DNA of 42,700 bases from assembly GCA_020629695.1 (NCBI GenBank), contig JAHDCV010000015.1, positions 30,236 through 72,935 of the forward strand, in the 5' to 3' direction. This DNA comes from Acidimicrobiales bacterium (lineage in GTDB: Bacteria; Actinomycetota; Acidimicrobiia; Acidimicrobiales; SZUA-35). The notes beneath the pieces are model-generated. The model worked only from the letters and a program-made list of their open reading frames with translations, did no database searches and had not been told where the DNA came from. Shown in pieces: positions 8,256 to 33,225 of the stretch (position 1 is its first letter; the number at the start of each line of letters is the position of its first letter). A program made the position numbers and the translations under genes.

Positions 8256-8347
8256 GGCGCTGCCCTGGAGGACGGCCGGCGGAGATCGCCCGCGGTGGGG
8301 ACGACGCTAGTCGGGTCCCGCGTTCGATCGGGCGACCGCCGAACCGC

Positions 8348-20561: not shown

Positions 20562-21596
20562 TCACCAGTGGCGGAGGTCGATCGGCCATTCGTCCACGAT
20601 CGCGGCCCCTTCGGTCGGGTCGTCGTCGACGACCCACATCGTGCGATGCCGGGCGATCGTCGGATCGACGTGCCCCGGACGCAACAGCACCCGGTCGCCG
20701 ACGTGGTGATCGGCGAGTCGGTCCGGGCGGAGGGTGACGTGCTCGTCGGAGCAGAACATGACCGAGCCCGGCCCCACCCATGTCGGGTCGCCGTGGTCCA
20801 TCCCGAGGGCCTTCAACCCGGCGTCGGCGACGATCCACCCGCGAGGATTCACCGAGATGACCGTCGCCAACACACCGAGCGCGGGACGGAACGGCAGGTC
20901 GGAGCCGTCGTAGTGGGTGTCGAGCAGCGTGTAGCTGCCGGCCTGGACCTCGGTGCACCACTCGTTCAGGTCGAACGTGCCGGTGCCGCCGGCCGAGACG
21001 ACGTCGCCGCCGATCCTCGCATGTGCCTCGGCGAGCACGGCCATCGCCGCCTCGACCTTGGCCCGGCGTCGCTCCCGGTCGGGCACCATCATGAGGTGGC
21101 CCTCGTAGCCCATGACCCCGCGCACCTCGAGGCCGGCCGCTCGGGCTCGCGCCGCGAGCCGCTCGCCCGTCTCGGCGTCGCAGCCACATCGGGGCAGACC
21201 CACGTCGATGTCGATCAGGATCGAGCGGACGCCGCCGGCGATGGCCGCATCGAGGATCGGATCGGAGTCGACGGCGACGGTCACGACGGCGTCGGTCTCG
21301 AGCGAGCCGAGCCGGGCCACGTCGAGGGACTCGTTCGCCAGCAACAGGTCGTCGCCGACACCGGCGCGCACCATGCCCTCGATCTCCGCCGGTGTCGCCG
21401 CGCAGAATCCCCGATGACCCGCCCGATCGAGTTCCCGTGCGAGTGCGGTCGACTTGAAGGCCTTCACGTGCGGGCGGAGGGAGCGCCCCGGCCGGATCGT
21501 GTCCATCGCCGCGCAGTTGTCCTCGAAGGCCGCCCGATCGACCACGAGCGCCGGCGTGCGCAGGTCGGTCGTCGTCGCGGGTCCGGATGCGGTCAT
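20562..21596 (-). CDS. D-threonine aldolase/D-serine dehydratase-like PLP enzyme
   Basis: A 344-residue fold-type III PLP enzyme: alanine racemase-like N-terminal barrel plus a metal-binding C-terminal domain. LRPHVKAFKS holds the expected PLP lysine, Lys45. The barrel continues with FCAATPAEIEGMVRAG and ILIDIDVGLPRCGC. Near the end, PGHVDPTIARH supplies His309 and Asp311, matching the His-x-Asp metal site described for D-threonine aldolase, where D-serine dehydratase has His-x-Cys. The likely reaction is retro-aldol cleavage of a beta-hydroxy D-amino acid. Start is ATG 21596. It is the third gene in a minus-strand set with the M24 peptidase and the racemase-like gene. Confidence 0.85.
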   Translation of the reverse strand: MTASGPATTTDLRTPALVVDRAAFEDNCAAMDTIRPGRSLRPHVKAFKSTALARELDRAGHRGFCAATPAEIEGMVRAGVGDDLLLANESLDVARLGSLETDAVVTVAVDSDPILDAAIAGGVRSILIDIDVGLPRCGCDAETGERLAARARAAGLEVRGVMGYEGHLMMVPDRERRRAKVEAAMAVLAEAHARIGGDVVSAGGTGTFDLNEWCTEVQAGSYTLLDTHYDGSDLPFRPALGVLATVISVNPRGWIVADAGLKALGMDHGDPTWVGPGSVMFCSDEHVTLRPDRLADHHVGDRVLLRPGHVDPTIARHRTMWVVDDDPTEGAAIVDEWPIDLRHW

Positions 21597-21627
21597 CGAC
21601 CGACGGTAGGAGTGTCGGCCAGCGGGG

Positions 21628-22398
21628 TCAATCGCCCGCGCCCGGCATGCCGAGAGCGAACAGCCGACCGCCCACCGGCATGACGTCGTCGACGCCGGCG
21701 AGCCGCAACACGTGCCACAACAACGCGGTGTTCGACGACACGACCGGGAGATCGAGTTCCGCCTCGAGGTCGGCGACGATGTCGAGCACCCGCAGGCTCG
21801 TGCACGAGACGAACACCGCATCCGGGCGCCGGTCGGCGACGACCCGACGGACCGCCTCGGCGATCGAGGCGGGCGAGATCCTGGCGACGACGCTGTCCCG
21901 GGCCTCCAGGAAGGACGCCAGTGCGGTGACCTCGAGGCCCGAGGCCACCAGGCGATCGGCGATCGGCGCCGTCACCTCGGCGGTGTACGGGGTGATGATG
22001 GCGATCCGTCGGACGCCGAGCGCCCCGAGCGCCGTCGACGCGGCGCGGATCGGGTCCGTGCAGGCGATACCGGGGTGTGGCGTACGGATCGCGGCCGCGA
22101 CCCGGTCGCTTCCGATCAACGTCGAGGCCGAGGTGCATCCATAGGCGATGGCGTCGAAGCCGAACGTCGTCGGCAGCAGACGGGCGGCCTCCGGCAGCCG
22201 CGCCTCCATCGCGGTCAGCGTCGCTGGCGTGACCTCGTCGTCGTTGGGGATGCGGGAGTGGTACCACGCCACGCCCTCCGGCGCGACCGAGCGCGCCTCG
22301 ATCTCGAGTGTCTGGTCGCTCTCGAGCAGGATCAGGCCGATCCGGGCACGGGCGCCGAAGCCGTCGTCGACCTCGAACTCGAGTGGCAGGGGTTCCAT
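21628..22398 (-). CDS. Asp/Glu racemase-superfamily protein (maleate isomerase/AMDase-like)
   Basis: A 256-residue protein of the aspartate/glutamate racemase superfamily, closest in pattern to maleate cis-trans isomerase and arylmalonate decarboxylase. The two catalytic cysteine positions are occupied: Cys88 in IAYGCTSAST and Cys199 in VFVSCTSLRVLD. The paired Cys indicate isomerase or racemase chemistry rather than the one-Cys decarboxylase. EutA of ectoine-utilisation loci belongs to this same group. The ATG at 22398 follows a GGGGGAGA Shine-Dalgarno. It begins 17 nt after the M24 gene ends, so the two are one transcript. The substrate cannot be named. Confidence 0.83.
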   Translation of the reverse strand: MEPLPLEFEVDDGFGARARIGLILLESDQTLEIEARSVAPEGVAWYHSRIPNDDEVTPATLTAMEARLPEAARLLPTTFGFDAIAYGCTSASTLIGSDRVAAAIRTPHPGIACTDPIRAASTALGALGVRRIAIITPYTAEVTAPIADRLVASGLEVTALASFLEARDSVVARISPASIAEAVRRVVADRRPDAVFVSCTSLRVLDIVADLEAELDLPVVSSNTALLWHVLRLAGVDDVMPVGGRLFALGMPGAGD

Positions 22399-22415
22399 GG
22401 TCGTCTCCCCCGGCC

Positions 22416-23567
22416 TCAGATGATCGGGAGCTCGGGTGCGGCCCGACGGCTCAACAGCTCCGGCCCATCGGCGCGGACCACGAGATTCTCCTCGTGGACC
22501 ATCGCCTTCCCCGGCGCCCACATCAGACCCGGCTCCAGGGTCAGGACCATGTTCTCCCGGATCACGGTGTCGTCGCTCGCCGTGTGCGATGGCCATTCGG
22601 TCACCTGCATCCCGAGGCCGTGCCCCATCCGACCGACGTCGTTGCCGAGCGACCCGTTGGCCTTCAACACGGCGTTCATCGCCTCGAAGACCTGGGTGGT
22701 GGTCACGCCGGGACGCAGCATGCCCAGCGCCGCCTCGGTCGCCTCCCAGACCGCGCGATAGGCGTCCTCGGCTCCCCGGTCGGCGTGGGTGAACGCGAAG
22801 TTGCGATCGAAGTCGCTGAAGTAGCCGTCGATCGTCGAGCCCGTGTCGAAGATGAGCAGATCGCCGTCGGCGATCACGCGATCCGACGGTTGTCGGATGA
22901 TGTCGTCGATCCCGCCGGGGCCGGTCGCACCCACCAGGTACGGCACGTCGTCGACTCCCTGGCGCAGGATCTCCGCCCGGAACGCAGCGAACGCCTGACG
23001 CTCGGTCATCCCGGTCGACAGGATCGAGGGCAGCTCGTCGAACGCATCGGAGACCAGCCCGCAGACGTGGCGGTGCTTGGCGATCTCGCGTTCGCTCTTG
23101 ATCATCCGCAGACCGCTGATCACGTCCGTGACGTCCACGAACTCGCCGACGGTCTCCCGGAGGCGATCGACGTCCCGCAGCGGCATCCGCATGTGGGTCT
23201 CGGGTCCCATCGGCACACCGATCGGCCCGTCCCCGGCGATCGATCGCAGACACTCGGCCACGAGCGAGATGCCGTCGTCATCGGGCGCGGGCGACGACCA
23301 CGTCCGCACGTCGTCGATCCAGGTCTCGCTCATCGACGCCCGCCCGATCGACGGGATGACCGCGATCGGTTTGCCCGCCGCCGGCACGATGACGAACCAC
23401 GGCCGCGTGGGGCTCTGCCAGAACGGCGTGTGGAAGCCGGTGAAGTAGCGGACCTCCGGCTCGGTGCAGACGAGGATGGCCGCGAGCGACCGCTCGGCCA
23501 TCAGCAACTGGCAGCGACGAGTCCGTTCCTCGAACTCGTCGTCGGGGAAGCCCCGTTCGAACACCAT
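22416..23567 (-). CDS. M24 family metallopeptidase (Xaa-Pro peptidase/ectoine hydrolase-like)
   Basis: A 383-residue pita-bread enzyme with a creatinase-type N-terminal domain (CTEPEVRYFTGF) and a C-terminal M24 domain from about residue 155. The metal ligands appear complete: Asp241 in IFDTGSTIDG, Asp252 in YFSDFDRNF, His316 in MGHGLGMQVTEWPS, Glu345 in LTLEPGL and Glu360 in VHEENLVV. The family includes prolidases, aminopeptidase P, creatinase and ectoine hydrolase (DoeA/EutD). Being followed by a racemase-superfamily gene recalls eutD-eutA pairing, which is inference only. It starts the minus-strand operon and is divergent from the selenoprotein gene. Confidence 0.87.
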   Translation of the reverse strand: MVFERGFPDDEFEERTRRCQLLMAERSLAAILVCTEPEVRYFTGFHTPFWQSPTRPWFVIVPAAGKPIAVIPSIGRASMSETWIDDVRTWSSPAPDDDGISLVAECLRSIAGDGPIGVPMGPETHMRMPLRDVDRLRETVGEFVDVTDVISGLRMIKSEREIAKHRHVCGLVSDAFDELPSILSTGMTERQAFAAFRAEILRQGVDDVPYLVGATGPGGIDDIIRQPSDRVIADGDLLIFDTGSTIDGYFSDFDRNFAFTHADRGAEDAYRAVWEATEAALGMLRPGVTTTQVFEAMNAVLKANGSLGNDVGRMGHGLGMQVTEWPSHTASDDTVIRENMVLTLEPGLMWAPGKAMVHEENLVVRADGPELLSRRAAPELPII

Positions 23568-23685: not shown

Positions 23686-24213
23686 ATGGTGACCTTCGTC
23701 GATCCCCGGGGTGTGCCGGCCACACCCGTCGAGTCCTACGACCTCTCGGTCGATCCCACCGCACCCGGGCGACGGGTGGGTCTGCTCGCCAACGGGTTCC
23801 CGGACTCGGTGCGCTTCCTCCGGGCCGTGGAACGGGCCCTCGCCGCCCGGCTCCCCGACGCCGAGTTCGAGTTGTTCGACAAACGGGACCCCACCACCGT
23901 CGTGAGCGACGTGCTGCGTGACCAGATCGACCAACGCTGCGACATGGTGGCCGCGGCCTACGGGCATTGAGGCAGCTGCACCACCGGCACCGTGCGTGAC
24001 GGCATCATCCTCGCCCGCAGCGGCGTCCCGACGGTGGCCCTCGTGACCAGCGAGTTCACTCCGCAGGGCGACTTCGTCGCCCGATCTTCGGGCATGCCCG
24101 ACATCCCCCGGGTCGAGCTGCCCCACCCCGTCGCGGGCACCGACGACGCGACGATGGCGACCATCGCCGCACACGCGGCCGACGCCGTCATCGACGCGTG
24201 GTCCGGTCGATGA
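23686..24213 (+). CDS. UGSC family selenoprotein (in-frame TGA read as Sec95)
   Basis: Read through one in-frame TGA (23968-23970), this is a 175-residue protein with selenocysteine at position 95 in GHUGSCTTGTVRDG, with Cys98 completing the U-G-S-C motif. VGLLANGFPDSVRFL at the N-terminus and SGVPTVALVTSEF plus GMPDIPRVELPHP after the motif fit the UGSC family, known to me as a selenoprotein family noted in marine metagenomes with Cys-containing homologues elsewhere. The frame does not shift, and both halves show normal coding bias. The U-x-x-C spacing suggests a thiol/selenol redox centre. Function is unknown. The final TGA overlaps the start of the next gene. The alternative is a nonsense mutation, which I find less likely. 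No sel genes lie in this window. Confidence 0.85.
23968..23970 (+). other. Predicted selenocysteine codon (UGA recoding site)
   Basis: This TGA is in frame with the ATG at 23686 and with the downstream sequence to the TGA at 24211-24213. The next three codons encode Gly-Ser-Cys, the exact motif for which the family is named. A standard gene caller would stop here or begin a separate gene downstream. Confidence 0.83.
23977..23996 (+). promoter_or_regulatory. Candidate bacterial SECIS hairpin
   Basis: Immediately after the Sec codon, TGCAC (23977-23981) can pair with GTGCG (23992-23996, one U-G pair), giving a 5-bp stem and a 10-nt loop. The loop contains GG at the 16th and 17th bases after the UGA. 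Bacterial SECIS elements are expected to be a hairpin within the coding region just downstream, with a G in the apical loop at about this distance. The stem is short and outward pairing is imperfect, so this is a weak prediction made by eye. Confidence 0.4.
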
Positions 24214-25271
24214 GCGTGCTCGAGGCCTCCGACGATGCCGCGGCGCTCGAGCTGCTGCACGAACTCGGATGTACCGACGGTCTTCCGGTCGTCGTCCCGA
24301 CCGAGGAACGGGTCGCCCGCATGGCCCTGGCGTCCGGGCTGGATCCGTCACTGTCGCTCGGTCTCATGGGCCCGGCGATGGCCGAGTGCACGGTGGAGCT
24401 GCTCGCAACGGCCGCCGTGATGGCGGGATGCCTGCCCGACCACATGCCGGTCGTCCTCGCCGCCGCGACCGCGGTGCTGGATCCCCGCTTCGACCTGACC
24501 GAGATGCAGGCGACGACCCATGCCACCACGCCGCTCGTGATCGTCAACGGCCCGGCCCGAGCCGCCGCCGGGGTCCACGCCGGCTTCGGCGCACTCGGCC
24601 CCGGCCACCGGGCGAACGCATCGATCGGCCGGGCCCTCCGTCTGGCGATGATCAACATCGGTGGCGGGCGCTCGGGCTCGTCCGACATGGCGCTGCTCGG
24701 CCATGGCGGCAAGTTCACGATGTGTCTGGCCGAGGACGAGGAGGCCAGCCCGTGGGAGCCGCTGCACGTCGCCCTCGGCCACGCCGCGACGAGCTCGACC
24801 GTGACGGTCATGGGCGCCGACGCACCCACCTCGGTGATCGGGACCGGCCAGGCGGGCACGACCGTCTATGCCGAACGACTCCTCACCTCACTTGCCACCG
24901 CGTTCCGTTCGATCGTGTCCAACAACGCAGCCATTCGGGGCGGCCAGGCGGCGCTCGCGCTCAACCCCGACCATGCGCACGCACTCCACTCGGTCGGCCT
25001 GGGCCGAGCCGACGTGCAGCGCGAACTCACCGATCGGGCGGTCGTGCCGGCGGATGTGATCGACGCGGCCGCCGGTCCGAGCCGGTCGGGCGGGCGGGAC
25101 CGACCGTGTTTCGCCGAGCCGGACGACCTGCTCGTCCTCGTCGCCGGTGGGACGGGCCTCTACTCCGCGGCATTCACCACCTGGTCGACGGGGCCTCACC
25201 GCAATCGGGCCGTCACGACACCGGTCCTCCTCGACCAGGCATGCGCCCTCCCGGGATCCGCGGGGCCGTGA
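24210..25271 (+). CDS. Uncharacterised protein coupled to the UGSC selenoprotein
   Basis: A 353-residue protein of a family I recognise only by pattern: CTDGLPVVVPTEERVARM near the N-terminus, then VMAGCLPDHMPVVLAA, TPLVIVNGPARAAAGVHAGF, GPGHRANASIGRALRL and FTMCLAEDEEASPWEPLHV. To my memory these occur beside UGSC-motif proteins in other bacteria, with no defined function. Cys21, Cys60, Cys74 and Cys172 are candidates for partners of the selenol. No signal peptide or membrane helix is present. The ATG overlaps the selenoprotein stop (ATGA), which strongly implies translational coupling and suggests a fixed stoichiometry or complex. The frame extends four codons upstream to a GTG, which I reject. 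Confidence 0.8.
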   Translation: MSVLEASDDAAALELLHELGCTDGLPVVVPTEERVARMALASGLDPSLSLGLMGPAMAECTVELLATAAVMAGCLPDHMPVVLAAATAVLDPRFDLTEMQATTHATTPLVIVNGPARAAAGVHAGFGALGPGHRANASIGRALRLAMINIGGGRSGSSDMALLGHGGKFTMCLAEDEEASPWEPLHVALGHAATSSTVTVMGADAPTSVIGTGQAGTTVYAERLLTSLATAFRSIVSNNAAIRGGQAALALNPDHAHALHSVGLGRADVQRELTDRAVVPADVIDAAAGPSRSGGRDRPCFAEPDDLLVLVAGGTGLYSAAFTTWSTGPHRNRAVTTPVLLDQACALPGSAGP

Positions 25272-25359: not shown

Positions 25360-27618
25360 GTGCTCTGGACCCTCCTCATCGCGCACCTCGCCGGCATCGT
25401 CGTCGCCGGCGTCGCCGGTCGGCGCGGCATCCGAGCGGGCCTGGCCGCCGCGGCGATCGCACCGGCGGCCACCGCCACCTGGGCGATCAGCCGACTGGTC
25501 GGCGACGCCGACCCTGCCACGGCAGAACTGGTGTGGGTCGCGGGCCTGGATCTCGGCGTGTCCTTCCGGCTCGACTCGATGGCGCTCATGATGACCACGC
25601 TCGTCTCGGGCATCGGCACCCTCGTCTTCGTCTACGCCATCGGATACTTCTCGGCCGGGGCCGACGGCGGCGTGCGCTTCCCGACGGCACTGCTCGCGTT
25701 CTCCACGTCGATGCTCGGCCTCGTCTGGGCCGACTCGGTGTGGACCCTGTTCATCTTCTGGGAGTTCACCTCCATCACCTCCTTCCTCCTGGTCGGACAC
25801 AAGAACACCTCGGCCGACGTCTTGCGGGCGGCCCGGCGGGCCCTCATGATCACCGGCGCCGGCGGTCTGGTCCTGCTGGCCGGTCTCCTCCTCGTCGCCG
25901 AAGCCGCCGGCACGACCACGATCTCCGAACTCGGGCCGATCACCGGCTCCTCGGCGTCGGTCGCGGCGATCCTCGTCATGGTCGGGGCCGCCACCAAGTC
26001 CGCCCAGTTCCCCTTCCACGTCTGGCTGCCCGGAGCGATGGCGGCTCCAACTCCCGTCAGCGCCTACCTGCACTCGGCCACCATGGTGAAGGCCGGCGTG
26101 CTGCTCGTGGCCGTGCTCTCGCCCGCGATGATCGACGTCGATGCCTGGCTCTGGACGGGTCTCGCCTTCGGCGTCACGTCGATGCTGTGGGGAGCGATCG
26201 GCGCGCTGCGCCAGCGTGACGCGAAACTCATCCTGGCCTGGGGCACCGTGAGCCAGCTCGGCCTGCTCGTCACGGTGCTGTCGCTCGGATCGGGCAAGGC
26301 GTTGTTCGCCGGCATCTCGCTGCTGTTCGCCCATGCCCTGTTCAAGGCCGCACTCTTCCTCGTCGTCGGCGAGGTCGACATCCGAACCGGGACCCGAGAC
26401 ATCGCCGAGCTGGGCGGGCTCGCCCGATCGATGCCGATCGCCGCAGCGGTCGCCGCCCTGGCCGGGCTGTCGATGGCCGGCGTCCCGCCGCTGCTGGGCT
26501 TCATGGCCAAGGAGGCGGCGATCGAGGCGGGCCTCGGGTTGTCCGGTCCCGAGCGATGGATCGCACTCGGGGCGATCACCGGAGGTTCGGTCCTGACCGT
26601 GGCCTACACGCTGCGGTTCTGGATCGGCACGTTCGGGCCCGGCCCCGCCACCGAGGTCGCTCCTCGACGCCTCGCCATGACCGCGCCCGCCGTGCTCCTC
26701 GCGCTGGCCGGGGTGCTCGGCTACGTCTTCGCCGGTCAGGTCACCGACATCGTCGGCCCGGCGGCCGTCGAGGCGAACGAGAAGGCGTCGGTCTACGAAC
26801 TGATCCGCTGGCCGGGCCTGAAGACGGCCTTCGTGATCTCGATCGGCATCGTCGCAGCCGGTACCGCCCTCGGCTGGTTCCTGAGTGCCCGACCGGTCGG
26901 CGCGGCACCTCGAACCGTCGGTGCCGACGCCGCCGACGAGACCATCGAGGCCACCCTCCGCTTCGCGCCGGACATCACCGCCCGGGTGCAGCACGGATCG
27001 CTCCCCGTGTATCTCGCCACCATGATCATCGCCGTCATCGCCGCGACGATGCCGTTCTTCGCCTCGGCCGAGATCGACCACCTGGTGCTCTGGGATCGGC
27101 CGTTGCAGGCCGGTCTCGTCGCCGTGACGATCGTGGCCGCCGCCACCGGAGCGGTCGTGGGCTCACGGCTCGGAGCCACGCTCACCCTCGGCGCCGTCGG
27201 AATCGGCGTGTCGGGCATCTTCGTCGTCCACGGCGCCCCCGATCTCGCCCTCACCCAACTGGTCGTCGAGACCGTGATCGTCGTCGGGTTCGTGCTCGGA
27301 TTCGGCTCGCTGGCCCGCGAGTTCCCCCGGAGCTCGGAGTCATGGCAGACCATCCGACTCGTGCTCTCGGTCATCAGCGGGATCGGGATCATGAGCGCCC
27401 TCGCCTTCGCCGGGAGCCGTCCGACGGGGACCGCTCCGATCGAGGCGCTGACCGACGAAGCGGTGGATGTCGGCGGCGGCAAGAACGTCGTGAACGTGAT
27501 CCTCACCGACATCCGTGCGCTCGACACCCTCGGTGAGGTCGTCGTGCTCGCGACCGTCGCGGTCGGCATCCTCGCCCTCGCCCGGGTCCGGGCCGATGAA
27601 GTGGAGGCCGCGTCGTGA
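25360..27618 (+). CDS. mrpA: Mrp Na+/H+ antiporter subunit A (MrpA/MnhA)
   Basis: A 752-residue membrane protein with about 20 helices. The central proton-channel domain shows FPFHVWLPGAMAAPTPVSAY and LHSATMVKAGVLL with the family lysine. The later LFAHALFKAALFLVVGEVD and MAGVPPLLGFMAKEAAIEAG match the NuoL-like half. The C-terminus has a DUF4040/MrpA-C region (GVSGIFVVHGAPDLALTQL, then NVVNVILTDIRALDTLGEV), as expected for full-length MrpA. It is the largest subunit of the multisubunit cation/proton antiporter used for Na+ tolerance and pH homeostasis. The GTG at 25360 is the first plausible start, and the stop overlaps mrpB. Confidence 0.94.
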   Translation: MLWTLLIAHLAGIVVAGVAGRRGIRAGLAAAAIAPAATATWAISRLVGDADPATAELVWVAGLDLGVSFRLDSMALMMTTLVSGIGTLVFVYAIGYFSAGADGGVRFPTALLAFSTSMLGLVWADSVWTLFIFWEFTSITSFLLVGHKNTSADVLRAARRALMITGAGGLVLLAGLLLVAEAAGTTTISELGPITGSSASVAAILVMVGAATKSAQFPFHVWLPGAMAAPTPVSAYLHSATMVKAGVLLVAVLSPAMIDVDAWLWTGLAFGVTSMLWGAIGALRQRDAKLILAWGTVSQLGLLVTVLSLGSGKALFAGISLLFAHALFKAALFLVVGEVDIRTGTRDIAELGGLARSMPIAAAVAALAGLSMAGVPPLLGFMAKEAAIEAGLGLSGPERWIALGAITGGSVLTVAYTLRFWIGTFGPGPATEVAPRRLAMTAPAVLLALAGVLGYVFAGQVTDIVGPAAVEANEKASVYELIRWPGLKTAFVISIGIVAAGTALGWFLSARPVGAAPRTVGADAADETIEATLRFAPDITARVQHGSLPVYLATMIIAVIAATMPFFASAEIDHLVLWDRPLQAGLVAVTIVAAATGAVVGSRLGATLTLGAVGIGVSGIFVVHGAPDLALTQLVVETVIVVGFVLGFGSLAREFPRSSESWQTIRLVLSVISGIGIMSALAFAGSRPTGTAPIEALTDEAVDVGGGKNVVNVILTDIRALDTLGEVVVLATVAVGILALARVRADEVEAAS

Positions 27619-28055
27619 TCGCCACCCGCTCTCCGATCGTCCGGCTCGCGATCCAGACCGCGACGCCGATCGCGATCGTGCTCGGCACCTACCTGCTCTT
27701 CGCCGGCCACAACCGTCCGGGCGGCGGTTTCGCCGCCGGTCTCGTGTTCGGTGCCGTCGTCGTGCTCCGGACGATCGCAGGCCTCCAGCGCCCGCGCCAC
27801 GCCGACACTCTGATCGCCGTCGGCGTCGTCATCGCGGTGGCCGTGGCTGCGCTGCCGGTGCTGTGGGGCGATCCGTTCCTCGACATGAAGATCGTCGAGA
27901 CGACCGTGCCGCTGCTGGGCAAGATCAAGACCGGCTCGGCGCTGCCGTTCGACATCGGCGTGATGGCGATCGTCGTCGGACTGATCGTGGCGTTGCTCGA
28001 CGGCCTGTCGCTACCGACGGTCGACGACACCGGTACCGAGGCGGGCGCGGCATGA
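27615..28055 (+). CDS. mrpB: Mrp antiporter subunit B
   Basis: A 146-residue protein with four hydrophobic segments. SPIVRLAIQTATPIAIVLGT followed by LLFAGHNRPGGGFAAGLVFG is the MnhB-family signature. It starts with GTG overlapping the mrpA stop (GTGA) and its own stop overlaps mrpC. It is a structural subunit of the heteromeric Mrp complex. Confidence 0.93.
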   Translation: MIATRSPIVRLAIQTATPIAIVLGTYLLFAGHNRPGGGFAAGLVFGAVVVLRTIAGLQRPRHADTLIAVGVVIAVAVAALPVLWGDPFLDMKIVETTVPLLGKIKTGSALPFDIGVMAIVVGLIVALLDGLSLPTVDDTGTEAGAA

Positions 28056-28423
28056 GCATCTCACTGCTGATCGGTGTCGGCGCCCTCACCTCCATCGGGG
28101 TGTACCTGATCACCGCACGCACGCTGAGCCGGATCATCCTCGGCTTCGTGCTGCTCGGCCACGCCGCCGTGCTCGCCCTCCTGACCGCCGGGGGCCCGTC
28201 CGGCGCCGCGCCGATCGCCGGTGGCGACGCGGCGCTCGCCAATCCCCTCCCCCAGGCACTGGCGCTCACCGCGATCGTGATCTCGTTCGGTCTGACCCTG
28301 TTCATGCTGGCGCTCGCCGTGCGGCAACAGACCCTCACCGGCGACGACCTCGTCGAGGACGACCTCGAGGACCAGCGGATCGCGCAGCTCGCGGCCGAGA
28401 ACGAGCACGAGGCCGACCGATGA
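28052..28423 (+). CDS. mrpC: Mrp antiporter subunit C
   Basis: A 123-residue, three-helix NuoK-like subunit. GVYLITARTLSRIILGFVLL is the conserved first-loop sequence of MrpC/MnhC, and NPLPQALALTAIVISFGLTL contains the family's proline-rich entry to the third helix. The C-terminal 30 residues are very acidic and likely cytoplasmic. ATGA overlaps exist at both ends. Confidence 0.93.
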   Translation: MSISLLIGVGALTSIGVYLITARTLSRIILGFVLLGHAAVLALLTAGGPSGAAPIAGGDAALANPLPQALALTAIVISFGLTLFMLALAVRQQTLTGDDLVEDDLEDQRIAQLAAENEHEADR

Positions 28424-29898
28424 ACACCGTGCTGACCCTCATGCTCGTCGCGCCGCTGCTGTCGGCGGCCCTCGCCTTCGCCGTGCGCCGCCACGACCAG
28501 CTCCGCGATGCCCTCACGCTGGCCGGCCTCGGCACCGCGGCCGGTGCCTCGGGCGTCATGTTCGCGACGGTCGCCGCCGATGGGCCGTTCGTGCTCCGGG
28601 TCGGGGGATGGCACCCGGAGCTCGGCATCGTGCTCGTCGCCGACCGATTCGCCGCCCTCGTGCTTCCCGTGGCGCTCGCCATCATCTTCGTCGTCGAACT
28701 GTTCGCGATCGGACAACGCAAGACCGCCTGGGGCTCGAACCCGGAACTCTCCGGCCCGATGATGGGTGTGCTCACCGCCGGCGTGTCCCTGGCGATGTTG
28801 ACCGGCGACCTGTTCACCCTGTTCGTCGCATTCGAGTTGATCCTCGTGTCGAGCTACGTGCTCCTGACCCATCAGGGCCAGGCCGCCCAGCTTCGAGCGG
28901 GCATGACCTATGTCGTGATGAACCTGCTGGCATCGACGTTGTTCCTCTTCGGGCTCGCCTACGTCTACGCCGCCACGGGCACCGTGAACCTCGCACTCCT
29001 CACCGAACGCATTCCCGAACTCCCCGACGGCGTGCGTCTCGGCATCGGTGCCTGGTTCTTCGTCGTGTTCGGCACGAAGGCCGCCGTGTTCCCGCTCTTC
29101 TCATGGCTGCCCGACTCCTACCCCACCGCACCCACGACCATCACGGCCGTGTTCGCCGGGCTGCTCACGAAGATCGGCATCTACGCGATGATCCGCTTCC
29201 ACACGCTGATGGGGATGGATCAGCTCGGCAACACCATGCTGATCATCGCCGGCGTCACGATGATCGTCGGAGCGCTGGGTGCGCTGGCCCAGTCCCACGT
29301 CAAGCGGATCCTGTCGTTCCACATCATCAGCCAGATCGGCTACATGTTGATGGGACTCGGCCTGTTCACCGCCGCCGGCACGGCCGGAGCGATCCTGTTC
29401 CTGGTTCACCACATGCCGGTGAAGACGGTGCTGTTCCTCGTCGGTGGTCTGATCGAGAACGACCAGGGCACGGGCCGCCTCGATCGCACCGGCGGACTCG
29501 CCCGGCGTCGACCGCTCATCGCCGCCCTGTTCGCGGTGCCCGCGCTGAGCCTCGCCGGGCTCCCGCCCTTCTCGGGGTTCGTCGCCAAGTTCGCCGTGAT
29601 CTCCGCCGGCATCGAGGCCCGGGCCACCCCGTGGGTCGTGCTCGCCCTCGTGGCCGGAGCGCTCACGTTGTTGTCGATGACGAAGATCTGGCTCGGTGTG
29701 TTCTGGGGTGCCGATCCCGACCGTGTGTCGGTCCGTCGCCCGCCGGGTAACCGGCCGATGATGCTCGCCGCAACCGGCATCGCCGTCGCCGGAACCCTCA
29801 CCATCTCGGCCCTGGCGGGTCCGCTGTTCGACTTGAGCGTGGACGCCGCGGAGGATCTCCGTGACCCCGAGATCTACCGGACGGCGGTGCTGCGATGA
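28420..29898 (+). CDS. mrpD: Mrp antiporter subunit D
   Basis: A 492-residue NuoN/NuoM-like antiporter subunit with about 14 helices. FTLFVAFELILVSSYVLL carries the conserved glutamate of the fifth helix. KAAVFPLFSWLPDSYPTAPT and FAGLLTKIGIYAMIRF hold the conserved lysines and the WLPDSY motif. HHMPVKTVLFLVGGLIE and LAGLPPFSGFVAKFAVI complete the pattern. Together with MrpA it forms the proton path of the complex. It overlaps mrpC and mrpE by four bases. Confidence 0.94.
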   Translation: MNTVLTLMLVAPLLSAALAFAVRRHDQLRDALTLAGLGTAAGASGVMFATVAADGPFVLRVGGWHPELGIVLVADRFAALVLPVALAIIFVVELFAIGQRKTAWGSNPELSGPMMGVLTAGVSLAMLTGDLFTLFVAFELILVSSYVLLTHQGQAAQLRAGMTYVVMNLLASTLFLFGLAYVYAATGTVNLALLTERIPELPDGVRLGIGAWFFVVFGTKAAVFPLFSWLPDSYPTAPTTITAVFAGLLTKIGIYAMIRFHTLMGMDQLGNTMLIIAGVTMIVGALGALAQSHVKRILSFHIISQIGYMLMGLGLFTAAGTAGAILFLVHHMPVKTVLFLVGGLIENDQGTGRLDRTGGLARRRPLIAALFAVPALSLAGLPPFSGFVAKFAVISAGIEARATPWVVLALVAGALTLLSMTKIWLGVFWGADPDRVSVRRPPGNRPMMLAATGIAVAGTLTISALAGPLFDLSVDAAEDLRDPEIYRTAVLR

Positions 29899-30392
29899 GC
29901 TCGTTCGGGCCTCGCCGACTCAGCGCCGTGGTGGCGCTCACCGCCGCATGGTGTGCACTCTGGGGAGAGGTGAGCATCGCCAATGTGGCTGGTGGCCTGG
30001 TCGTCGCCGGCGCCGCGACGACGGCCGGCACGGCACCACCGTTGCACGGACCCATCCGTCCGCTCGCGCTGGCGAGGCTGGTCGGCATCGTGGTCGTCGA
30101 CCTCGCGAAGTCGACGGTCGCCGTCGCTCGAGAGATCCTCACCCCGACCGACCACACCGACGAAGTCGTCGTGGCGGTGACGCTCGGACCCGACGTGCGG
30201 GAGCACATGCTGCTCCTGACCGTCGCCGTCACCCTGACGCCCGGCACGGCGGTCATCGACGCCGACGCGGACACCGGGATCCTGACCCTGCATCTGCTGC
30301 ACGCCGATCAGACCGAGTCCACCATTGCCCACGTCAACCACCTCGCCCGGGCCGCGGCCGACGCGCTGCCCTCGCCGGAGGCCCGGTCATGA
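29895..30392 (+). CDS. mrpE: Mrp antiporter subunit E
   Basis: A 165-residue MnhE-type subunit. Hydrophobic segments at the N-terminus (AAWCALWGEVSIANVAGGLV) are followed by LVGIVVVDLAKSTVAVAREI, then a soluble domain with LLTVAVTLTPGTAVIDAD, the family signature. ATGA overlaps exist on both sides. MrpE supports assembly or stability of the complex in species studied. Confidence 0.92.
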   Translation: MSSFGPRRLSAVVALTAAWCALWGEVSIANVAGGLVVAGAATTAGTAPPLHGPIRPLALARLVGIVVVDLAKSTVAVAREILTPTDHTDEVVVAVTLGPDVREHMLLLTVAVTLTPGTAVIDADADTGILTLHLLHADQTESTIAHVNHLARAAADALPSPEARS

Positions 30393-30661
30393 TCTTCACC
30401 ATCGCCATCGTGGGCTTCGGGATCGCCGGCCTCTGCGGCGTGTATCGCCTGCTCATCGGACCGTCGCTGGCGGATCGGGTCATGGCGCTCGACATGTCTC
30501 TCATCTGCCTCATGGGGGCGGTCACCGTCGACGCAGCGGCCCGGAACGACACGACCTATCTGATTCTGCTCATCGTGATCGCGATCATCGGCTTCACCGC
30601 GACGGTCTCGGCCAGTCGCTTCATCGAGTGGGATCACGACGCACCGGAGAAGGACCGTTGA
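30389..30661 (+). CDS. mrpF: Mrp antiporter subunit F
   Basis: A 90-residue three-helix protein. GVYRLLIGPSLADRVMALDM is the conserved MrpF/MnhF motif between helices one and two, and FTATVSASRFIEWD closes the third helix. The ATG overlaps the mrpE stop, and the TGA overlaps the TTG start of mrpG. Confidence 0.93.
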   Translation: MIFTIAIVGFGIAGLCGVYRLLIGPSLADRVMALDMSLICLMGAVTVDAAARNDTTYLILLIVIAIIGFTATVSASRFIEWDHDAPEKDR

Positions 30662-30993
30662 CGACCGTGATCGCCTCGATCTTCCTGCTCCTCGGCGCCG
30701 GCATCGCCGTGATCGCCGGCGTCGGCATCCTGCGGTTCGACTCCGCCTTCGCCCGCTTCCACGCGGCGGGCAAGGCCAGCCCGATCGCCTTCCTCGCCGC
30801 CGCGGTCGGCGCGGGGCTCGAGCTCGGCCCGGCGGGCGCAGCGCTGCTGCTCATCGCAGCCGCCGCCATGACCCTCACACTCCCGTTCGGGGTGCACCTG
30901 CTGTTCCGAGCGGTGCATCGGACGACGGAGACCGCCGCCACCCCGACGGACCGGACGAATCGGCAAACGAACCAAGGAGACAACGAATCATGA
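30658..30993 (+). CDS. mrpG: Mrp antiporter subunit G
   Basis: A 111-residue MnhG-type subunit with three hydrophobic segments. GVGILRFDSAFARFHAAGKA is the family motif after helix one. I use the TTG at 30658 because it overlaps the mrpF stop in the same four-base manner as its neighbours; GTG 30667 is the alternative. The hydrophilic tail is rich in Thr and Asn. It completes a full seven-gene mrpABCDEFG set. Confidence 0.92.
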   Translation: MTTVIASIFLLLGAGIAVIAGVGILRFDSAFARFHAAGKASPIAFLAAAVGAGLELGPAGAALLLIAAAAMTLTLPFGVHLLFRAVHRTTETAATPTDRTNRQTNQGDNES

Positions 30994-31556: not shown

Positions 31557-31695
31557 CCCGACGTCCGACGTCCGAACCGTGCGCGATCGACGCGGTTGTC
31601 GGTCGGCCGCCTCCGGAGGTTGCCGCAGGCGACCGCGCCGAGGATGATGCAGCGATGCCGCGTTCGTGCCGCACGACACCTTCGGTTGCCTGGTC
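31557..31695 (+). promoter_or_regulatory. Intergenic region upstream of mttB homologue
   Basis: These 139 bp hold two tandem CCGACGT units at 31558-31571 and a perfect 10-bp palindrome CCTCCGGAGG at 31610-31619. The palindrome could be an operator, for example for the adjacent winged-helix regulator. No clear -10/-35 is seen. Confidence 0.4.
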
Positions 31696-33225
31696 ATGAC
31701 GGCCCGCCCGAAACGCCGCGGCGCCTCGCGCCGTGGGGCCGTCCAACACAGCGGACCAGCGATCACGACGCCTCCCGTCGGCGGCCGCTACGAACCGCTC
31801 GCGCCGCACGAATGCGAGGCCCTCGTCGAGCACGCCTTCGAGATCCTCGGGACCGTGGGCATGGCCGACGCGCCGACGCCCCTCGCCGAGGCGCTCACAG
31901 CCGCAGGGGCGAGCCGACGGAGCGATGGTCGGCTCCTCCTTCCGAGAGGGCTCGTCGAGGCCGCGCTGCTGCGTGCCCCCTCCATCGTCGAACTCCCGGG
32001 CCGGGACGACGACCACGGGTTGACGATCGGCGGTCCGGGACCGGTCCACATCGGGACCGGCGGCGCTGCGGTGCAACGGTTCGATGCCGACACCGGCACC
32101 TTCCGGGAGAGCTCGCTGGCAGACCTCCACGAGATGATGCAGGTGCTGGATGCCTGCCCGAACATCCACTACGGACTCCGCCCCCTCGTGGCCCGCGACG
32201 TCGCTCCGGAGCTCCTCGATCTCCACACCGCGTTCGCGCTCGCGACCGAGACGAGGAAGCCGACCGGCCTCAGCTTCGTCGGCGCCGACAACGTCGACCC
32301 CGTCATCGATCTGTTCGACATGGCACTCGGTGCCCCCGGCGCCTTCGCCCGTCGACCCCATGCGATGGCCGTGGTGGTCCATGTCGTGCCGCCGCTCCGA
32401 TTCGCCCCGGAGGGATACGAGATCATGGTGCGGGCGATCGAGCGCGGCATGGTCATCCAGACCTGTTCGGCCGGACAATCGGGAGCGACGAGTCCGGCAT
32501 CGCTCGCCGGCTCGCTCGCTCAGGGACTCGCGGAGATCCTCGCCGGCGTGGTGATGGCGGATGCGATCGCCCCCGGCCACCCCTGTATCCATGCGTTCAT
32601 GCCGTTCGTGTCCGATCTCCGGACCGGGGCGATGATCGGTGGCGGCGGAGAGGCCGCCGTCTCGAGCGCCGCCGCGGCACAGCTCCTCCGTCACCTCGGA
32701 CTTCCCCATGCGGTGTCGGCCGGCATCACCGACTCGAAAGTGCCCGATGCCCAGGCAGGCTACGAGAAGGGCTACACCGTGGCCCTCGCCGCCCAGGCCG
32801 GCGCCGAGATGGTGCAGCTCTCGGTCGGCATGCTCGGATCGATCATGGTCGCGAGCCCCGAGGCCCTGGTGATCGACGACGACATGTGCGGTGCGATCCT
32901 GCGCTCGGTGCGCGGCATCGAGATCTCCCCCGCCGTCCTCGATCTCGCGATCACCGAGGCCGTGGTCGGCGGGGACGGCCATTACCTCGGCCACGCGCAG
33001 ACCCTGGAACTCATGCGGAGCGAGTACGTCTACCCGAGCCTCGGCGATCGGACGTCGGTCGACGAGTGGATCGGCGCCGGCCGACCTTCACTCCTCGATC
33101 GTGCGAGCCGGCGGGTGACCGAGATCCTCGAACGCGAGCGGGACCCGATCGTCGACGACGACACCACGGCAGCCATCCGCGCCCGCTTCGGGCTGGACGC
33201 GGCATCGAAGGCGGTGAAGCGATGA
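31696..33225 (+). CDS. MttB-family (trimethylamine methyltransferase-like) protein, non-pyrrolysine
   Basis: A 509-residue member of the MttB superfamily. Typical elements are a first region ending FEILGTVGMADAPTPLAEAL, ASIG-like turns such as GPVHIGTGGAA, CPNIHYGLRPLVARDVAPEL, MIGGGGEAAVSSAAAAQLL and ITDSKVPDAQAGYEKGYT. The frame has no internal TAG, so it is not a pyrrolysine-type trimethylamine enzyme. Characterised non-Pyl members demethylate quaternary amines such as glycine betaine, passing the methyl group to a corrinoid protein. No corrinoid protein or reductive activator is nearby, so the acceptor may be encoded elsewhere. I start at ATG 31696; GTG 31666 is possible. The stop overlaps the next gene (ATGA). 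Confidence 0.87.
   Translation: MTARPKRRGASRRGAVQHSGPAITTPPVGGRYEPLAPHECEALVEHAFEILGTVGMADAPTPLAEALTAAGASRRSDGRLLLPRGLVEAALLRAPSIVELPGRDDDHGLTIGGPGPVHIGTGGAAVQRFDADTGTFRESSLADLHEMMQVLDACPNIHYGLRPLVARDVAPELLDLHTAFALATETRKPTGLSFVGADNVDPVIDLFDMALGAPGAFARRPHAMAVVVHVVPPLRFAPEGYEIMVRAIERGMVIQTCSAGQSGATSPASLAGSLAQGLAEILAGVVMADAIAPGHPCIHAFMPFVSDLRTGAMIGGGGEAAVSSAAAAQLLRHLGLPHAVSAGITDSKVPDAQAGYEKGYTVALAAQAGAEMVQLSVGMLGSIMVASPEALVIDDDMCGAILRSVRGIEISPAVLDLAITEAVVGGDGHYLGHAQTLELMRSEYVYPSLGDRTSVDEWIGAGRPSLLDRASRRVTEILERERDPIVDDDTTAAIRARFGLDAASKAVKR

Follow-up and report, generated by a model that had tools for sequence, protein, structure and literature searches.

The question raised by this locus is how a reading frame interrupted by a TGA codon is translated, and what its product might do together with that of the adjoining gene. 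The window, by which we mean the whole stretch of 42,700 nucleotides analyzed, comes from a bacterium of the order Acidimicrobiales. The features concerned are the following:

23686 to 24213, plus strand: UGSC family gene, almost certainly encoding a selenoprotein (read-through translation, PF24696 match, AlphaFold2 model).
23968 to 23970, plus strand: in-frame TGA, predicted selenocysteine (Sec) codon of residue 95 (TGA conserved; Cys in four homologues).
23984 to 24002, plus strand: SECIS-type hairpin, whose CCG/CGG and CAC/GUG stems flank a G.A mismatch, with a CGUGC loop (covariation, frozen codons).
24210 to 25271, plus strand: partner gene encoding 353 amino acids, with an invariant Cys74; it adjoins the UGSC gene in nearly all the loci.

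The UGSC gene consists of a single frame of 175 codons plus a stop (TGA, 24211-24213), the sole internal TGA being that of residue 95. The codons following the latter (GGC AGC TGC) encode G-S-C, which gives U95 G96 S97 C98 on recoding. The original prediction that this TGA splits one continuous frame, and that recoding yields the U-G-S-C motif of a known selenoprotein family, was confirmed by the translation and by the Pfam UGSC model PF24696, which matched residues 5-173 of the read-through protein, spanning the TGA, at 148 bits (E-value 4e-43), the gathering score being 25, and which was the only match obtained in the Pfam scan. The score against the NCBIfam equivalog NF041046 (UGSC_fam) was 115.2 bits, and since the cut-off is 125, the protein is placed in the Pfam family and outside the equivalog. 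The 17 other members of the window subfamily sampled score about the same (the best E-value among the 18 was 2.2e-33), and this subfamily is probably missed by the NCBI naming rule. The original expectation that the gene would be split in automated annotation is plausible. The window protein is a new member of an already known, uncharacterized family of bacterial selenoproteins (PF24696, NF041046; Zhang and Gladyshev 2008, PMC2398784), with which it shares the sequence family, the position of the Sec and the UGSC motif. The window subfamily differs from the named family not only in scoring under the NCBIfam cut-off but also in having its own SECIS sequence and in the motif context, which is H-U-G-S-C-T-T-G in the window and HUGSCT[TS]GT in the subfamily, as against D-U-G-S-C-[TS]-S in the commoner members.

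The genome from which the window originates is 97% complete and harbors the Sec machinery: a tRNA-Sec gene (67.2 bits, cut-off 47), selA and selB homologs located side by side on contig C25, and a selD homolog (C48:57425-58348), which carries an in-frame TGA of its own, so that SelD is probably itself a selenoprotein. In a search for near relatives, 80 loci were kept, which together with the window gave 82 UGSC genes, 81 of them identified by a motif search and one (in locus L155) read separately. All 82 genes carry TGA at the Sec codon, and 81 belong to the window subtype (H-U-G-[SG]-C), the exception being the second gene of locus L088. The gene in L155 shows the variant motif U-G-G-C (8283-8294), with both the TGA and the SECIS sequence retained. 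The column of residue 95 is invariantly Sec or Cys in the alignment: a Cys residue, aligned exactly at this position, occurs in four of the 60 distinct UGSC proteins from the window's order. The homologues continue past the TGA, and the residues beyond it are conserved.

UGSC genes were detected in 68 of the 148 genomes of the window's order. SelB occurs in 62 of these 68 genomes, as against 23 of the 80 without UGSC (Fisher p 2e-15), these lists having been compiled by hand and SelB called where the best E-value did not exceed about 1e-68, a line drawn by eye against the ordinary elongation factors; since genomes belonging to a single order are akin, p-values of this kind overstate independence. 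The six UGSC genomes in which SelB was not called comprise two with a Cys-encoded UGSC protein (G019 and G053), three drafts (G001, G063, and G099) and one with a weak match (G018). In other lineages, SelB was above the cut-off in all nine genomes carrying near relatives of the window UGSC gene, the records of which are titled Gammaproteobacteria, Deltaproteobacteria, Syntrophales, Myxococcota, and Acidobacteria. A tree built from 73 UGSC proteins separates the window subtype from the others by a branch with support of 100/99, and the fact that this subtype spans several phyla suggests that horizontal transfer has occurred. Carriers of such loci include the cultured marine gammaproteobacteria HTCC2143 and HTCC2080 (L125 and L157). 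A UGSC locus resembling those of environmental bacteria was also present in L161, whose record bears the title Klebsiella pneumoniae MAG and is probably a mislabelled bin.

The SECIS-type hairpin of the window subtype (5'-CCGGCAC-CGUGC-GUGACGG-3', 23984-24002) has a small apical loop containing a guanosine, as bacterial SECIS elements require, and this loop begins 21 nt past the UGA. In 53 sequences, 98.7% of the hairpin cells were paired, as against 37.4% or less in the slid controls, a comparison biased in favor of the structure because the latter was proposed after viewing the sequences. Covariation was found at two pairs (C-G to G-C in 6 sequences and C-G to U-A in 8), these changes possibly reflecting few events inherited by several sequences, and four pairs were invariant. 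A test on codon entropy, which makes no assumption about the hairpin, points in the same direction: among the 80 loci, codons +6 to +10 (GGC ACC GTG CGT GAC) are nearly frozen synonymously (0-0.1 bit), as compared with 0.29-2.4 bits at other conserved codons. The single deviating hairpin sequence, that of L143, differs only at loop positions 1 and 4. When folded alone, the window sequence showed an energy no better than that of its shuffles, and the case for a SECIS element is therefore a comparative one. The other UGSC subtypes carry a different, analogous hairpin, with a loop of the NGUNN type and a stem of 7 bp; five of the stem pairs are present in all 50 sequences, and at three of these five the bases vary. 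The four Cys-encoding homologues form just 1-5 of the 7 stem pairs, the hairpin of the other subtypes having been lost.

Were the TGA a genuine stop, or else an error of sequencing, the half lying beyond it would be a remnant or a separate frame. Formally there are indeed two ORF pieces, and the hairpin energy of the single sequence is unexceptional, but the frozen codons, the covariation, the complete Sec machinery and the conservation of the TGA and of the residues beyond it make this reading extremely improbable. Sequencing error in particular is excluded by the occurrence of the TGA in all 82 genes, which come from many assemblies. The reading of the UGA at 23968 as a predicted Sec, as judged from these comparisons of sequences, is almost certainly correct, and the original assignment to the UGSC selenoproteins thus stands on the PF24696 match, the Sec machinery and the conserved TGA alike.

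What kind of protein carries this Sec residue? AlphaFold2, run on 42 homologues, predicted a (beta-alpha)5 architecture, i.e., five beta-alpha units, with a pLDDT of 94.6, and the model matched flavodoxin-like, receiver-like, and PurE-like proteins with moderate scores in searches with Foldseek and VIA-align. PDB sequence matches to xanthine dehydrogenase-type subunits and carrier proteins were regarded as coincidences (E 0.1 or worse). One possibility would be a Sec-containing thiol-disulfide oxidoreductase of the thioredoxin or peroxiredoxin type, having a general redox role, in which UxxC acts like CxxC. The UxxC motif itself speaks for this idea, and a thioredoxin-like fold was suggested for the family in PMC2398784. 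Contrary to that suggestion, the predicted fold, with its five parallel beta-alpha units, does not seem to resemble that of thioredoxin, even if the absence of thioredoxin folds from the lists of structural matches is compatible with a relationship. In addition, the Pfam scan of the UGSC protein gave no match to a thioredoxin family, and a strict coupling to one partner along with several paralogous pairs per genome would be unusual for a general thioredoxin. A role of this kind seems unlikely.

The evidence points to a different relationship. An hhalign comparison with a profile built jointly from GrdB (8 sequences) and PrdB-like (13 sequences) Sec domains, all belonging to the window's class, gave a probability of 94.6%, with an E-value of 7e-8 and a score of 56.6, as against 16.7 for the reversed alignment and 19.3 for the best of 60 column permutations; with GrdB or the PrdB-like proteins alone, the probabilities were 75% and 69%, respectively. 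The score was still 51.2 when the UGSC motif was masked and 38.7 when the PHP motif was masked as well, the maximum of the permuted controls being 15.7 in the masked comparison, where one of the permuted values is possibly a duplicate. In the profile alignment, in which confident coverage is limited to UGSC residues 78-172, the two Sec residues coincide, as do the HP motifs, and the two families (PF07355 and UGSC) share a strand followed by U-x-x-C/T, a helix, GxP, and a later HP. The Pfam model PF07355 (GRDB) does not match the UGSC protein, the kinship being visible only from profile to profile, and no solved GrdB or PrdB structure was found for comparison. We conclude that the UGSC protein and the Sec domain of selenoprotein B (GrdB/PrdB) are very probably remote homologues. 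The UGSC protein differs from GrdB and PrdB in being much shorter, in lacking the N-terminal domain of GrdB and in lacking a pyruvoyl partner of the GrdE/PrdA type. The genome also carries three PrdB-like genes (PF07355) with an in-frame TGA and the motif P[VI]-U-P-x-C, on contigs C39, C114, and C68, which probably encode further selenoproteins.

The (beta-alpha)5 fold might also be that of an electron carrier resembling flavodoxin, or of a regulatory subunit that binds a ligand, with the Sec binding a metal or sensing redox conditions, and the top Foldseek match was in fact the FMN protein AzoR (E about 2e-4, TM about 0.45). These matches are loose, however (rmsd 5-7 A), CheY, PurE, and FtsZ being equally good, and the Sec residue starts the helix after strand 3, as in the GrdB/PrdB alignment. 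This explanation is improbable, even more so than the thioredoxin type.

As in GrdB and PrdB, the Sec gene adjoins that of a partner. In the window, the start of the partner gene overlaps the stop of the UGSC gene (ATGA). A profile search found the partner within reach downstream of every UGSC gene of the window subtype except in L126, and in ORF clustering the partner family was present in 81/81 loci of the window subtype and 35/36 loci of the other subtypes, mostly upstream of the UGSC gene in the latter. Within the 148 genomes of the window's order, the partner occurs in 65 of the 68 genomes carrying UGSC and in one of the 80 others. The genome studied has three UGSC-partner sets, which are of different subtypes; in the copy on contig C4, the two proteins are fused in one frame of 578 aa. 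A fusion of UGSC with a domain called Unknown_1 was reported in PMC2398784; this second-domain association is thus a further feature common to the family, and the partner is probably that domain. Tandem UGSC genes of different subtypes, about 600 bp apart and with partners on both sides, were observed in L037 and L088.

The invariant residues of the partner include Cys74, Arg141, Asp159, and Glu175. Its sequence gave no credible Pfam match and no relative in the PDB, and its fold, although confidently predicted, had no convincing structural match; the matches to the alpha domain of class I fumarases and to hydrolases with a Toblerone fold were weak (best Z 4.6; E 0.005 with Foldseek) and were not used. 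The partner does not appear to be a relative of GrdE/PrdA (hhalign probability 0.1%, below the permuted controls), and no relation to the domains of GrdB was found. Pyruvoyl subunits of the GrdE/PrdA type (PF09338) had no match in the genome studied, as against their presence in all eight genomes carrying a full-length GrdB.

The neighborhood of the pair is variable. Beside the UGSC gene, a divergent cassette on the minus strand (20562-23567) includes M24 peptidase, EutA-like/arylmalonate decarboxylase-like, and BhcC-like genes, resembling ectoine or amino-acid catabolism, and it was not found next to UGSC in the other loci. Genes for the alpha and beta subunits of nitrile hydratase lie a few kb from UGSC in 24 loci (including L101 and L107), which according to their titles are mostly from related marine Acidimicrobiia. 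Since the other neighbors vary and the ectoine-like cassette is not recurrent, no substrate is claimed. After the UGSC-partner pair, the window carries an Mrp/Mbh-type cation antiporter cluster (25360-30993) and, further on, an open MttB-family gene free of in-frame stops (31666-33225), inside which Rfam PYLIS_3 matched at 32725-32817 (51.5 bits); this match reflects homology with mttB and does not speak for pyrrolysine.

According to a review of the glycine and D-proline reductases (PMC10298544), their Sec protein presumably attacks a partner-bound substrate, forming a Se-C bond that is then reduced. By homology with GrdB/PrdB, we infer that the UGSC protein and its partner may form a physical complex carrying out nucleophilic reductive chemistry. 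SelB and the hairpin at 23984-24002 would direct ribosomes to read the UGA at 23968 as Sec; the partner would hold or activate a small substrate, possibly via Cys74; the selenolate at residue 95 would attack the bound substrate; Cys98 would resolve the adduct as a selenenyl-sulfide; and a reductant of the thioredoxin type would recycle the latter. We regard this Sec-dependent two-subunit reductase mechanism as a proposal falling slightly short of even chances. Since no GrdE/PrdA pyruvoyl subunit was found in the genome and the partner is not detectably related to it, the classical Schiff-base step is not simply transferable, and substrates other than amines are conceivable. A proposed attack on another C-X bond has been described for the GrdB-like proteins involved in fluoroacetate dehalorespiration (PMC10838667): FarB/FarE of Cloacibacillus likewise combines a GrdB-type Sec protein, for which a non-amine C-X attack is predicted, with an adjacent partner, but it differs from UGSC in that FarB is a full GrdB homologue, its partner is GrdE-like and its host is an anaerobe. 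By analogy, the three UGSC-partner sets in one genome would fit a series of substrate-specific protein B paralogues. Taken as a whole, the explanation combining a recoded UGA, a GrdB/PrdB-like Sec protein, and a two-subunit reductase formed with the partner is the one we favor by a modest degree; the UGA recoding, the Sec machinery, the homology with the GrdB/PrdB Sec domain and the near-obligate partner are the parts of it read from the sequences.

UGSC genes accounted for 8.2% of the selenoprotein genes in a later set (PMC9402790). The earlier statement that the biochemical role of the family is undescribed agrees with a 2026 review (PMC13188914), and no proposals going beyond a presumed thioredoxin-like redox function were found in the accessible literature. 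The additions made here are the subfamily with its SECIS element, the partner gene that almost always accompanies UGSC, and the relationship with the selenoprotein B Sec domain, which was not found stated in the accessible text of the open-access UGSC papers searched. The distinct SECIS sequence of the subfamily provides a marker by which to detect genes that may be split in annotation, and the homology with selenoprotein B, together with the near-obligate partner, gives testable predictions about complex formation, selenolate chemistry, and a small-molecule substrate. It is tentatively proposed that UGSC and its partner might constitute a further type of selenoprotein B-like reductase besides GrdB-GrdE and PrdB-PrdA, which would be compact, two-subunit, and non-pyruvoyl, widespread in marine bacteria, and present as paralogous pairs specialized for different substrates.
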